A stretch of 64,000 bases of DNA from Nocardioides scoriae (lineage in GTDB: Bacteria; Actinomycetota; Actinomycetes; Propionibacteriales; Nocardioidaceae): positions 1,798,001 through 1,862,000 of the forward strand of contig NZ_LT629757.1 in assembly GCF_900104965.1 (NCBI RefSeq), written 5' to 3'. The notes below the pieces were generated by a model. The model was not told the DNA's origin. It searched no databases and was given only the letters and a program-made list of their open reading frames with translations. The translations under genes were made by a program, and so were the position numbers. How positions within the stretch are numbered: position 1 is the first letter of the stretch; every line of letters begins with the position of its first letter. Below are positions 45,502 to 52,292 of this stretch, piece by piece.

Positions 45502-45529
45502 TTGTCTTGACGGGCTGGTGGGTTACGCT
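45502..45529 (+). promoter_or_regulatory. Candidate promoter of the sigma-factor gene
   Basis: TTGTCT (45502-45507) and TACGCT (45524-45529) are spaced 16 bases, resembling a housekeeping-type actinobacterial promoter. Transcription starting near 45536 would include the whole structured leader that follows. An alternative reading uses TTGACG (45507-45512) with TATGAC. Confidence 0.4.
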
Positions 45530-45540
45530 GCTATGACGCG

Positions 45541-45646
45541 TTGTCGTATCGACAAAGGGCGTGGGGTTGAAACCAACGACCTGACACCTGGGTGCTCGCA
45601 CCCGCGGACCCTGTCTCCCGTTCGGGAGAGCTAGGTCGGTGGGCGG
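45541..45646 (+). promoter_or_regulatory. Structured 5' leader (candidate RNA switch) of the sigma gene
   Basis: Five complementary pairings occur in 102 bases: TTGTCG/CGACAA (45541-45555), GGTTG/CCAAC (45565-45577), GGGTGC/GCACCC (45590-45603), TCTCCCG/CGGGAGA (45614-45629), and a long-range stem of 45573-45582 with 45633-45642 (nine pairs, one A-G mismatch). The long stem encloses the third and fourth hairpins as a three-way junction and ends four bases before the ATG. Its 5' strand shares CCAAC with the second hairpin, so the two folds exclude each other, a typical on/off arrangement. No known RNA class is recognised. Confidence 0.6.
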
Positions 45647-46708
45647 ATGACCGCCACAGTTCCCTCGTCGTCGGGCCCCCCGCTCACGACGTCTCCTCCT
45701 CGATCCCCCTCCCACGAGGCGCACAGCTTCGACGCCTCCGACGTGGTCGACCTCGTCGACGCCCAGGACGCCGACGCCCAGGACCTCCAGTCCCGGGCGG
45801 CGTCCGAGCAGCAGCTGGACACCCCCGGCTCGGAGCCGACGGCCACCGCGGCCGACGACGTCGACGCCACCCCCGGTGACGGCGCCGGGCCCACACCTGC
45901 GACGTCCGGCCGCAGCAGCCGCATCTCGGCCGCGCGCAGCTCGGCCAGCGCCGCCCGCACCGAGCGCACCCGCGAGCTGTTCACCCGGGCGCTGGAGCCG
46001 ATGTCCGAGGCCGAGCGGCAGGTGCTGCTCGACGAGGTGATCGTGCTGCACCTCGACCTGGCCCACTCCGAGGCCAAGCGCTACCGCTCGCGCGGCGTGC
46101 CCCTCGACGACCTGCAGCAGGTGGCGGCGCTCGCGCTGACGAAGGCCACCAACGGCTACGACGTCACGACCGGCCACAACTTCCTGTCGTACGCCGTGCC
46201 CACCATCCGCGGCGAGCTGCGCAAGCACTTCCGCGACCACGGCTGGATGATCCGGCCGCCGCGCCGCATCCAGGAGCTGCAGGCCCGGATCAACGTCGCC
46301 GACGCCGAGCTGGCCAACGAGCTCGGCCGCTCGCCGCAGCCCCAGGAGATCGCCGACCGGCTCGGCGACGACGTCGAGCAGGTCATCGAGGCGCTCTCCA
46401 GCGACGGGTGCTTCGTGCCGGCCTCCCTCGACCACCCCGCCGGCGGCGACGGCCTCACCAGCCTGGGTGACCTGCTCCCCCTCGACGACCTGGACCACCA
46501 GGCCTCCGAGGCCCGCATGGTGCTCCAGCCCGTGCTCCAGCACCTCTCCGAGCGCGACCGCCAGATCCTCGCGCTGCGGTTCTACGACGGCCTCACCCAG
46601 CGCGAGATCGCCGGCCGCATCGGCGTCACCCAGATGCAGGTGTCACGACTGCTGACCCGGATCCTCGGCCAGCTGCGCAACGACGTCGGCGAGCTCCGGG
46701 ACGAGTAG
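45647..46708 (+). CDS. SigB/SigF/SigG-family RNA polymerase sigma factor
   Basis: A 353-residue group 3 sigma factor. An unusually long, low-complexity acidic/Ser/Ala N-terminus (~100 residues) precedes region 2 (HLDLAHSEAKRYRSRGVPLDDLQQVAALALTKATNGYDVTTGHNFLSYAVPTIRGELRKHFRDHGWMIRPPRRIQEL). Region 3 (ANELGRSPQPQEIADRLGDDVEQVIEAL) and region 4 (LSERDRQILALRFYDGLTQREIAGRIGVTQMQVSRLL) follow. The family directs general stress or developmental genes. No anti-sigma factor gene is adjacent, so control may instead occur at the structured leader just upstream. ATG 45647. Confidence 0.93.
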   Translation: MTATVPSSSGPPLTTSPPRSPSHEAHSFDASDVVDLVDAQDADAQDLQSRAASEQQLDTPGSEPTATAADDVDATPGDGAGPTPATSGRSSRISAARSSASAARTERTRELFTRALEPMSEAERQVLLDEVIVLHLDLAHSEAKRYRSRGVPLDDLQQVAALALTKATNGYDVTTGHNFLSYAVPTIRGELRKHFRDHGWMIRPPRRIQELQARINVADAELANELGRSPQPQEIADRLGDDVEQVIEALSSDGCFVPASLDHPAGGDGLTSLGDLLPLDDLDHQASEARMVLQPVLQHLSERDRQILALRFYDGLTQREIAGRIGVTQMQVSRLLTRILGQLRNDVGELRDE

Positions 46709-48660: not shown

Positions 48661-49692
48661 ATGCAGCTCTCGACGATCCTGTCCTACTCCGGCGACCCCC
48701 GCGCCGCCGCCGACCAGGTGGCCGCGCTCGAGGCGGCGGGCCTGGACACCATCTGGGTCGCCGAGGCCTACGGCTTCGACTCGCCCACCCTGATGGGCTA
48801 CCTCGCGGCGCGCACCGAGCGGGTGCGGATCGGCTCGGCCATCCTCAACGTCTACTCCCGCACGCCGACCCTGCTCGCCCAGACCGCGGCGGGCCTCGAC
48901 AACGTCTCGGGCGGCCGCGCCGTCCTCGGCCTCGGTGCGTCCGGGCCGCAGGTCGTCGAGGGCTGGCACGGCATGCCGTACGACCGCCCCCTGGGCCGCA
49001 CCCGCGAGGCGATCGAGATCGTCCGCTCCGCCCTGCGCCGCGAGGTGGTGCGCCACGACGGCCGCAGCTTCACGCTGCCGCTGCCGGCCGACCAGGGCAC
49101 CGGGCTCGGCAAGCCGCTGAAGATGCTCACCCACCCCGAGCGCAGCAGCGTGCCCGTCTACGTCGCGGCGCTGGGGCCGAGGTCGGTCGAGAGCACCGCC
49201 GAGATCGCCGACGGCTGGCTGCCGTTCCTCTTCAGCCCCGAGGGCGCGGCCGGTGTCTGGGGCGACGCCCTGGCCGCCGGGTTCGCCCGCCGCTCGGCCG
49301 ACCTCGGGCCGCTCCAGGTCGTCGGCGGTGGCCTGGTCGCGGTCGGCGACGACGTCGAGGACCGGCTCGACCTGGCCCGCCCGCACGCCGCGCTCTACAT
49401 CGGCGGCATGGGCGCGAAGGGCAAGAACTTCTACCACCAGCTGGCCTGCCAGTACGGCTTCGAGGCCGAGGCCGACCAGGTCCAGGAGCTGTTCCTGGCC
49501 GGGAAGAAGCGCGAGGCCGAGGCAGCCGTGCCGCGGGCCCTGCTCGAGCAGACCAACCTGGTCGGCCCGGAGGGCCACGTCCGCGAGCGCATCGAGGCCT
49601 ACCGCGAGGCCGGGGTGACCGACCTGCAGGTGCTCCCCGTCGACGAGGACCCCGTGGGGCTGGTGCGCCGGCTCAAGGAGTGGGTGGCCTGA
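48661..49692 (+). CDS. F420-dependent LLM-class oxidoreductase
   Basis: A 343-residue luciferase-like TIM barrel. [98 protein letters not shown] is typical of the F420-binding subgroup (start of the family near methylenetetrahydromethanopterin reductase). [10 protein letters not shown] insertion follows, and a [16 protein letters not shown] helix lies near residue 245. The substrate is unknown. ATG 48661. It is 35 bases upstream of fbiC, the gene for its cofactor's deazaflavin, on the same strand. Confidence 0.9.
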
Positions 49693-49727
49693 CCCTCCGG
49701 GGGTGGCCGCGACTAGCCTGGGAGGCG

Positions 49728-52292
49728 ATGGCAACCCAGCAGTCCGACCCGGCCTCCTCGCCGGCACCGACGCCGCAGCAGCTGCGGCGGGCCCTGGCCC
49801 GCGCCGAGCGCGGGGCTGCGCTCGACCCGGCCGAGGCCACGGTGCTGCTCTCCGCCCGGGGCGACGACCTCGAGCGGCTGTGCGCCGTCGCGGCGCGGGT
49901 GCGCGACGCCGGCCTGGTCGCGGCGGGCCGGCCGGGCGTGGTGACGTACTCCCCCAAGGTCTTCGTGCCCGTCACGCGGCTGTGCCGCGACCGCTGCCAC
50001 TACTGCACCTTCGTCACCACCCCGGGTCACCTCGAGCGCGAGGGCCAGGCGCCGTACCTCTCCCCCGACGAGATCCTCGACATCGCCCGCCGGGGCGCCG
50101 AGCTGGGCTGCGCCGAGGCGCTGTTCACCCTCGGCGACCGGCCCGAGGACCGGTGGCCCGAGGCCCGGACCTGGCTCGACGAGCAGGGCTACGACTCGAC
50201 GCTGGCCTACGTGCGGGCGATGGCCGTGCGGGTGCTGGAGGAGACCGGGCTGCTGCCCCACCTCAACCCCGGGGTGATGTCGTGGGAGGAGATCAACCGG
50301 CTCAAGCCGGTCTCCCCCTCGATGGGGATGATGCTCGAGACCACCTCGCGGCGGCTCTTCGAGACCAAGGGCCTGGCCCACTTTGGCTCGCCCGACAAGG
50401 ACCCCGACGTGCGCCTGCGGGTGCTCGAGGACGCCGGCCGGCTGTCCGTGCCGTTCACGACCGGCGTGCTGGTCGGCATCGGCGAGACCCTGGAGGAGCG
50501 CGCCGACTCGCTGTTCGCCGTACGCCGCGTGGCCCGGCAGTTCGGCCACGTGCAGGAGGTGATCGTCCAGAACTTCCGCGCCAAGCCCGACACCGCGATG
50601 CGCCACCGCGACGACCTGCCGCTCGACGACTACCTCGCCACGCTGGCGGTGGCCCGCGTCGTGCTCGGCCCGCAGGTCCGGCTGCAGGCGCCGCCCAACC
50701 TGGTCGACCTCGCGGAGTGCCGCGCGCTGCTGGGCGCCGGCGTCGACGACTGGGGCGGCGTCTCCCCGCTCACGCCCGACCACGTCAACCCCGAGCGGCC
50801 CTGGCCCAGCCTCGACCGGCTCCGCCAGGTCACCGCCGACTCCGGCTTCGAGCTGCGGGCCCGGCTAACCGTGCACCCGTCGTACGCCCTGACCGGCGAG
50901 CCGTGGATCGACCCCCGGGTCTCGGGCCACGTCGCGGCCCTGGCCGGCGACGACGGCCTGCTCCACGACGACGTCGTCGAGCGGCGTCGGCAGCCGGTCG
51001 GACTGCCCTGGCAGGAGCCGGACGGCGGGTTCGCCCACACCGGCGCCGGCACCGGCCGCATCGACCTGCACGCCTCGGTCGACACCACCGGCCGCTCCGA
51101 GGACCGCCGCTCCGACTTCGACGAGGTCTACGGCGACTGGGAGTCGCTGCGCGAGCAGGCCGGCTCCCCCGTCGCCGCCCCGGCGGGGGCCACCTCCGAC
51201 GGCGTGGCTGCGCTCCGGGCCGCCGAGCGCGACCCGGGCAACCTGTCCGACGAGCACGCGCTGACCCTGATGACCGCCGAGGGCGACCTGCTCGACCAGG
51301 TCTGCCGCCTCGCCGACGACCTGCGCCGCGAGACCGTCGGCGACGACGTCACCTACGTGGTGAACCGCAACATCAACTTCACCAACGTCTGCTACGTCGG
51401 CTGCCGGTTCTGCGCCTTCGCCCAGCGGCGCACCGACGCCGACGCCTACTCGCTCTCGCTCGACCAGGTCGCCGACCGGGCCGAGGAGGCCTGGGGCCTG
51501 GGCGCCACCGAGGTCTGCATGCAGGGCGGCATCGACCCCGAGCTGCCCGGCACGGCGTACTTCGACCTCGCCGCGGCGGTGAAGAAGCGCGTCCCCCAGA
51601 TGCACGTGCACGCCTTCTCGCCCATGGAGATCGTCAACGGCTCCAGCCGCACCGGCCTGTCGTTCGAGGACTTCCTCATCAAGGCCCGCGAGTCCGGCCT
51701 CGACACCATCCCCGGCACCGCCGCCGAGATCCTCGACGACGACGTCCGCTGGGTGCTGACCAAGGGCAAGCTGCCGACCCGCACCTGGATCGACGTCATC
51801 AGCACCGCGCACCGCGTCGGCATCCCGACGACCAGCACGATGATGTACGGCCACGTCGACAACCCCCGCCACTGGGTCAACCACCTGCGCGTGCTCTCGA
51901 GGATCCAGGACGAGTCGCTGGCCGCCGGGGACGTCGGGTTCACCGAGTTCGTGCCGCTGCCGTTCGTGCACACCAGCGCGCCCATCTACCTCGCCGGCGT
52001 CGCGCGCCCCGGACCCTCGCTGCGCGACAACCTCGCCGTCCACGCGATGGCCCGGATCCTGCTCCACGGCCGGATCCGCAACATCCAGACCAGCTGGGTC
52101 AAGCTCGGCACCGACGGCACCCGCGCCATGCTCCGGGCCGGCGCCAACGACCTCGGCGGCACCCTGATGGAGGAGACCATCTCCCGGATGGCCGGTTCCC
52201 AGCACGGCTCCGCCAAGACCGTCGAGGAGCTCGAGGCCATCGGCGCCGGCATCGGGCGGCCCGTGCGGCGGCGCACGACCACCTACGCCTGA
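49728..52292 (+). CDS. fbiC: FO synthase FbiC (fused CofG/CofH)
   Basis: Makes the deazaflavin FO, the chromophore of coenzyme F420, from tyrosine and a flavin pathway intermediate. The 854-residue protein carries two radical SAM domains. The CofG half has CRDRCHYC at about residue 87, with [10 protein letters not shown] and [11 protein letters not shown]; the CofH half has CYVGCRFC at about residue 555, with [25 protein letters not shown] and [13 protein letters not shown]. About 90 residues of variable linker separate them. ATG 49728 follows GGGAGG; the 16-residue upstream extension overlaps the oxidoreductase gene. It is followed by a perfect inverted repeat. Confidence 0.97.

Follow-up and report, generated by a model that had tools for sequence, protein, structure and literature searches.

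Candidate two-state RNA leaders with a U.G hairpin upstream of SigB/SigF-type sigma factor genes in Nocardioidaceae, and ANTAR proteins as putative partners

The sigma factor gene and its leader

The window, a 64-kb stretch of DNA from a genome of 4.06 Mb on a single contig whose named relatives are Nocardioides and Marmoricola, carries a gene for a SigB/SigF/SigG-type sigma factor preceded by a structured leader (Table 1). The predicted protein matches TIGR02980 with 223.3 bits, slightly under the cut-off of 234.35 for this family, and Pfam sigma-70 regions 2, 3 and 4 all score over their cut-offs. An acyl-CoA dehydrogenase gene lies upstream on the same strand, and Pfam identified further neighbours as a MerR regulator, a GDPD phosphodiesterase, a protein with a tRNA-editing domain and a luciferase-like protein. 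The usual explanation for the control of stress-type sigma factors is partner switching with an anti-sigma factor. A preliminary description of this DNA had stated that no anti-sigma gene is adjacent and, in agreement with this, the neighbouring frames that were tested (five with domain matches and three without an informative match) contained no anti-sigma domain. Elsewhere in the window, an 870 amino acid frame (49680-52292, + strand) with two Radical_SAM stretches and a CofH_C domain resembles a fused CofG/CofH (FbiC-type) F420 synthase.

A promoter-like pair precedes the leader and would place the transcription start near 45536; a start downstream of 45600 had been named in advance as evidence against the proposed switch. 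A TAnnnT sequence is present at the place equivalent to its -10 element in relatives, as aligned by eye; a consensus promoter scan found no promoter at 45502-45529.

Table 1. Features of the sigma factor gene and its leader in the window. In an xAR loop, position 2 is A and position 3 is A or G.
Feature	Coordinates	Strand	Basis or remark
Promoter-like pair: -35 TTGTCT (45502-45507), -10 TACGCT (45524-45529), 16-nt spacer	45502..45529	+	predicted
P1 hairpin, TTGTCG-TAT-CGACAA, at 5' end of leader	45541..45555	+	6-8-pair stem nearby in 8 of 9 leaders
P2 plus outer stem (45558-45563 with 45583-45588; 4 of 6 pairs in the window)	45558..45588	+	conservation, covariation
P2 core hairpin, GUUG-AAACCAA-CGAC; U.G second pair, 7-nt xAR loop	45566..45580	+	wider motif
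P4 5' strand, CCAACGACCT, overlapping P2 loop and 3' arm	45573..45582	+	
Hairpin A, GGGTGCTCGCACCC (GGGTG-CTCG-CACCC)	45590..45603	+	96% of cells paired; 3 of 7 pairs with double changes
Hairpin B, TCTCCCGTTCGGGAGA (TCTCCC-GTTC-GGGAGA)	45614..45629	+	72% of cells paired; alignment poor here
P4 3' strand, AGGTCGGTGG, covering the ribosome-binding region	45633..45642	+	absent in 1 of 8 distinct leaders (L005)
SigB/SigF/SigG-type sigma factor gene, 353 amino acids	45647..46708	+	TIGR02980 and Pfam matches

The preliminary description had proposed that a long stem, here termed P4, encloses two hairpins and ends four bases before the ATG. All three elements of this proposal were recovered from the DNA: CCAACGACCT pairs with AGGTCGGTGG at nine of ten positions, with one A.G; hairpins GGGTGCTCGCACCC and TCTCCCGTTCGGGAGA lie between the two strands; and bases 45643-45646 form the gap before the ATG at 45647. 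The same description had set against P4 an alternative hairpin between GGTTG (45565-45569) and CCAAC (45573-45577). Both of these sequences are present but their register is not conserved, an equivalent 4-bp pairing being seen by eye in three of the eight distinct leaders. The conserved competitor of P4 is P2, in which GUUG (45566-45569) pairs with CGAC (45577-45580) around AAACCAA; since P2 and P4 use CGACC in common, the two are mutually exclusive. The leader as first described therefore stands with respect to P4 and both hairpins, and is amended with respect to the competing hairpin, of which another register is conserved.

Judged from the sequence of the window alone, the evidence for P4 and for a switch is weak. 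When the leader was shuffled with its dinucleotides preserved, a complement of nine in ten to the region before the ATG arose in 247 of 500 cases, and the fold energy of 45535-45660 was moderately below that of shuffled sequences (z -2.16; 4 of 200 equally good). The minimum free energy fold of the leader in the window contains the P2 core hairpin; all folds were computed at 37°C only. P1 stems differ in sequence between leaders, and L022 has a poor 5-bp stem only.

Six other genomes of the genus were found by protein searches to carry, between them, eight close relatives of the sigma gene, with leaders alignable with that of the window, giving an alignment of nine leaders of which eight are distinct. 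P4 is kept in seven of the eight, its 3' strand being lost in the remaining one; across the nine leaders 82% of its cells are paired and two of its ten pairs are changed on both sides, while slid versions of the whole structure of P4 with hairpins A and B gave 37-51% paired. The P2 core is present in all eight distinct leaders (one with a G.U closing pair), and with the outer stem 92.3% of 78 cells are paired, compared with 23-58% in slid versions; double changes occur in five cells belonging to two pairs. Covariation moderately exceeded that of shuffles in these few sequences, the score for P4 with hairpins A and B being reached by 7 of 500 and that for P2 by 48 of 500. Compensatory changes, the lack of which in orthologous leaders had been named in advance as evidence against the proposal, were thus found in both P2 and P4, and we regard the leader observation as real because relatives keep P4 with such changes.

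A covariance model of the whole leader (R1) gave nine sound matches in seven of 341 genomes of the family, all of them known sigma leaders, and nine weaker matches besides (E 0.009-0.096). Two simple patterns were discarded as leader detectors: GTTGWARMCNNCGACC matched in 300 of the 341 genomes and was useless, and GYTGNARMNNNCGRC matched 95 sites in the window's own genome, the one checked (at 3001062) lying inside a reading frame. Rfam gave no match at the gathering score for the window and its leader, with two sub-threshold matches, and none at E up to 0.1 for 20 related loci. This accords with the earlier statement that the leader belongs to no recognized RNA family, and a known terminator-type element, which had been cited as potential counter-evidence, was likewise not among the Rfam results. 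A resemblance to whalefall-1 on the - strand at 45587-45629 (antisense of hairpins A and B; 18 bits against a cut-off of 37) was taken as chance, a likeness of the loop to the L11 region of rRNA was considered and dropped, and no large metabolite aptamer was seen in the leader.

Energies computed with each state forced favour P2 in the window (-63.1 versus -57.1) and P4 in L008 (-80.6 versus -72.8). The two states lie within 2 kcal/mol of each other in five of the eight leaders compared (L003, L004, L006, L007 and L021), a comparison that excludes L005 as it is without P4; both states have probabilities below 0.02 in L006 and L022. The calculations therefore point to no single default state.

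A hairpin motif in paralogous sigma leaders

The P2 core is one instance of a wider motif, a hairpin with a U.G second pair counted from the loop and a 7-nt xAR loop, which occurs ahead of SigB/F-like sigma genes in the Nocardioidaceae, mostly at a distance of 43-105 nt, and has GCUG-(7 nt)-CGGC as its commonest form in paralogous leaders. In a discovery set of 85 leaders, which excluded the leader family of the window and from which the pattern itself was derived, an xAR loop was present in 13 of 18 stems with a 7-nt loop compared with 29 of 499 in the remainder of this DNA (p 6e-12). In a second set of 78 further leaders (102 new loci, less four without a sigma match and 20 already in the first set; near-identical pairs such as L211/L213 were kept) the corresponding counts were 23 of 24 and 3 of 107 (p 2e-21). 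The leaders include many relatives and a few near-duplicates, so that these p-values overstate independence, yet ten different loops occur among the 23. Loops of 5, 6 and 9 nt showed no enrichment in either set, and the signal for 8-nt loops was weaker than that for 7-nt loops. No second pair other than U.G was clearly enriched for xAR loops (for U.G, 44 of 92 in leaders versus 127 of 1805 elsewhere).

The four outer pairs, which were not used for selection, are 73% paired in an alignment of 54 hairpins that were chosen for their 7-nt xAR loops and include two, L031 and L073, that are probably chance. Double changes at these pairs occupy 60 cells, compared with 23.7 in shuffled alignments, none of 500 of which reached 60, and with 9-31 when the structure was slid, and on this pattern we take the motif to be an RNA hairpin. 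Of 109 distinct sigma loci, 33 carry a strict form of the hairpin, with a loop of 7 or 8 nt, and most of the paralogues examined are without it. A covariance model of the hairpin (R2) was too short for genome-wide use, with matches in 208 of 293 genomes at E 0.3. Thirteen of the 30 loci listed for this model are sigma leaders, ten of these being in or identical to training rows; nine of the other 17 were inspected and comprised one leader of an ANTAR gene (L309) and eight chance-like matches in or near long open frames. At L099 (2894-2952) tandem copies of the hairpin, with loops AAGCCAA and GAGACCA, precede a single sigma gene.

The pairing of the hairpin with the start region was compared between clades. 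In the leader family of the window the loop and 3' arm of P2 pair with the ribosome-binding region; the corresponding parts of the hairpin in a second clade, whose loop is GAGACCA, are complementary to the start codon region, the best duplexes reaching -20 to -23 kcal/mol (L207, L211, L245 and L259). No counterpart of P4 or complement to the start region was evident in many other paralogue leaders. Permutation tests of loop-arm against start-region pairing gave no significant result within the window family, in which one member can be exchanged for another (2807 of 5000); the signal among the other leaders was weak (164 of 5000).

ANTAR genes near sigma loci and known ANTAR targets

Genes for ANTAR proteins, as called by tblastn similarity to GAF-ANTAR and other ANTAR proteins, were found within 1.4 kb of 24 of the 109 distinct sigma loci, against about 1.0 expected from 176 ANTAR matches in 16 genomes that were chosen by hand and are not a random sample. 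One of these loci, L022, belongs to the window's own leader family. The strong hairpin-model match at L309 lies before a GAF-ANTAR gene, and in the stretch around it (L334) a sigma gene with a hairpin leader is overlapped by a GAF-ANTAR gene, which is followed by a second GAF-ANTAR gene with a hairpin leader of its own. Pfam found both GAF and ANTAR domains in the two L334 proteins and in the neighbours of L022 and L027.

The presence of the hairpin and ANTAR adjacency are loosely linked at 1.4 kb (11 of 33 loci with the hairpin versus 13 of 76 without; p 0.08). Within 3 kb, in 15 genomes and among the matches listed, the counts were 11 of 20 and 2 of 17 (p 0.014); this comparison used 37 sigma places picked from the listing, with five loci added by hand to the hairpin-bearing set, and related loci within it are not independent. 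Sigma genes of the GAGACCA type were also seen about 1.5 kb from clusters of ANTAR genes, with at least two to three genes each, in five genomes (G202, G151, G128, G249 and G220).

The genome of the window has eight matches to the ANTAR domain (PF03861), seven of them over the cut-off. None is near the sigma gene at 45647-46708; all eight lie elsewhere, and control by an ANTAR protein at this locus would therefore be in trans. No strict hairpin was found in those leaders of the ANTAR genes of this genome that were scanned; looser rules gave one stem, ACTC-(8 nt)-GGGT at L162, which lies some 98 nt before the first start of that gene. Across 34 ANTAR genes examined a strict hairpin was present in the leader of only one (at L334), a second match (L206) being the sigma leader itself.

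Published descriptions of ANTAR targets are of dual hairpins whose hexaloops have A at position 1 and G at position 4 (PMC3369931, PMC8934654, PMC8164766). The leaders studied here resemble the RNAs described for EutV, NasR and AmiR and in an actinobacterial set (PMC8164766) in that these are small leader hairpins, recognized through their loops, in which binding shifts a mutually exclusive fold; many of the actinobacterial targets are, as here, described as overlapping the ribosome-binding site (PMC8164766). The leaders studied here differ in that there is usually a single hairpin, whose loop has 7 nt, whose second pair is U.G and in which G at position 4 is not conserved. The loop in the window is AAACCAA, and no conserved G4 was present in the 54 aligned hairpins. 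Nor did we find in the leader in the window the second hexaloop hairpin that follows the first by a linker of 2-25 nt in dual targets, the next hairpin having a CTCG tetraloop. Among 52 leader rows a tandem pair occurs at L099 only, while an A1/G4 hexaloop is possible by eye in hairpin A of L006, L007 and L021. An ANTAR protein is encoded in the same genome, as expected of an ANTAR target. The main text of PMC8164766 contains no word beginning with sigma or Nocardioid.

A close parallel in form is offered by NmPAL, a PAS-ANTAR-LOV protein from Nakamurella that is described as binding short hairpins which occur singly, contain a U-G wobble and carry AGCAGC in the loop; an A-to-U change in the loop of its aptamer 58 weakened binding 83-fold, and the natural RNA target of NmPAL was unknown to the authors (PMC10966536). 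Like the hairpin described here, the aptamers of motifs 2 and 3 are single and short, and they are bound by an actinobacterial ANTAR protein. The U-G wobble with a 9-nt loop that these authors used as a search pattern is present in the window, where 9 nt lie inward from the U.G pair; their 9-nt loop corresponds here to the 7-nt loop plus its closing pair, beside the U.G pair (PMC10966536). The exact SELEX loop AGCAGC was not enriched in the leaders (one in 33 kb compared with 52 in 1.25 Mb; 1.7-fold only for the looser ARCAG), being found in one leader, L063, whereas the window has AAACCAA. NmPAL has also been used in an engineered riboptoregulator, in which it holds a hairpin against a fold that masks the Shine-Dalgarno sequence and so turns translation on (PMC11381354). 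The logic proposed below is the same, an ANTAR-binding hairpin within an exclusive masking fold that is opened by protein; the riboptoregulator is synthetic and driven by light, whereas the leader here is natural and precedes a sigma gene. No title on this motif or on ANTAR control of sigma leaders was among the literature matches listed, supplements and most subscription papers lying outside the search.

A proposed translational switch and its alternatives

The conservation of two exclusive folds, with compensatory changes on both sides, makes it very probable that the leader is a conserved two-state RNA. The switch logic of the preliminary description, in which one fold covers the ribosome-binding region, is retained with P2 in place of the hairpin originally drawn. 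In the first state P2 and its outer stem would be formed and the ribosome-binding region free; in the second the loop and 3' arm of P2 would pair with the 3' strand of P4 and the ribosome-binding region would be covered. That there may be no switching at all, the hairpin being a structural or stability element and P4 a lineage-specific by-product, has some appeal in that P4 is within chance when the window is taken alone, is absent in L005 and is without an evident counterpart in many paralogues. The compensatory changes in P4 within the window leader family, and the second clade with its start-codon complementarity, argue against it and we consider it improbable.

Among the three kinds of leader that had been put forward, namely a riboswitch, an RNA thermometer or a protein-sensed leader, the last fits best, because a small hairpin with a restricted loop is common to many sigma paralogues and adjoining ANTAR genes are in excess. 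A direct response of the two folds to temperature or a ligand, with no protein involved, would be in keeping with a sequestered ribosome-binding region and with the close predicted energies of the two folds in several relatives, and stress sigma genes would be plausible targets of such control. The conserved sequence is concentrated, however, in a hairpin of 15 nt, which recurs by itself in the leaders of paralogues, Rfam gave no match, and in a thermometer a restricted loop with a fixed U.G pair would be needless; the chance of a metabolite riboswitch or thermometer is accordingly rated as small.

The short P2 hairpin, in which the U.G pair is fixed and the 7-nt loop is of the xAR type, has the form expected of a target of an RNA-binding protein, and its likeliest partner would be an ANTAR-domain sensor protein, of the GAF-ANTAR type in relatives. 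Once activated, such a protein may bind and hold P2, so that P4 is broken and translation of the SigB/F-type sigma factor is turned on. A translational switch activated by an ANTAR protein is the best available mechanism, and genome neighbourhood and architecture together give it about an even chance of being correct; from these we infer both the binding of an ANTAR protein to P2 and the direction of its effect, activation instead of repression. Our confidence in ANTAR activation is slightly reduced by the lack of a strict hairpin at the genome's own ANTAR genes and of a permutation signal in the window family.

The same switch might instead answer to another trans-acting factor, either a different RNA-binding protein or a small RNA acting on the loop, with ANTAR genes merely sharing signalling neighbourhoods with sigma genes. 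The hairpin is found at sigma genes with no ANTAR gene within 1.4 kb in the DNA covered (22 of 33), the window's own sigma gene has no adjoining ANTAR gene, and the leaders depart from the ANTAR loop consensus and show no enrichment of the exact NmPAL loop, all of which count in favour of another factor. Against such a factor stand an ANTAR adjacency far above chance, the ANTAR gene at L334 that carries the hairpin in its own leader, and the resemblance of the architecture to NmPAL aptamers. We judge another factor to be unlikely, though the most probable of the alternatives to an ANTAR protein.

Extended beyond the window, ANTAR activation would suggest a system across Nocardioidaceae in which GAF-ANTAR sensors govern how numerous SigB/F-type sigma paralogues are translated. 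Their targets would form a new class of ANTAR-bound RNA, each with one U.G hairpin and a 7-nt xAR loop; in the other state, the ribosome site or start codon would be masked by the loop and 3' arm of this hairpin. We put this forward tentatively, at slightly less than even probability, with the leader in the window as one member. If true, the synthetic NmPAL riboptoregulator would have its natural equivalent in these leaders, which could replace anti-sigma control at these genes. A hairpin common to many sigma leaders, together with its candidate partner, would put a family of RNA-binding sensors directly over sigma synthesis; it would also supply natural targets for actinobacterial ANTAR proteins, and would open the question to direct tests on reporter leaders and RNAs of 20 nt.

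Another style of hairpin, approximately GGUC-(7-8 nt rich in A)-GGCC or GNGCC and again with U.G as the second pair, was noticed by eye in several members of a further group of sigma leaders (L044, L050, L054-L059, L061 and L063).
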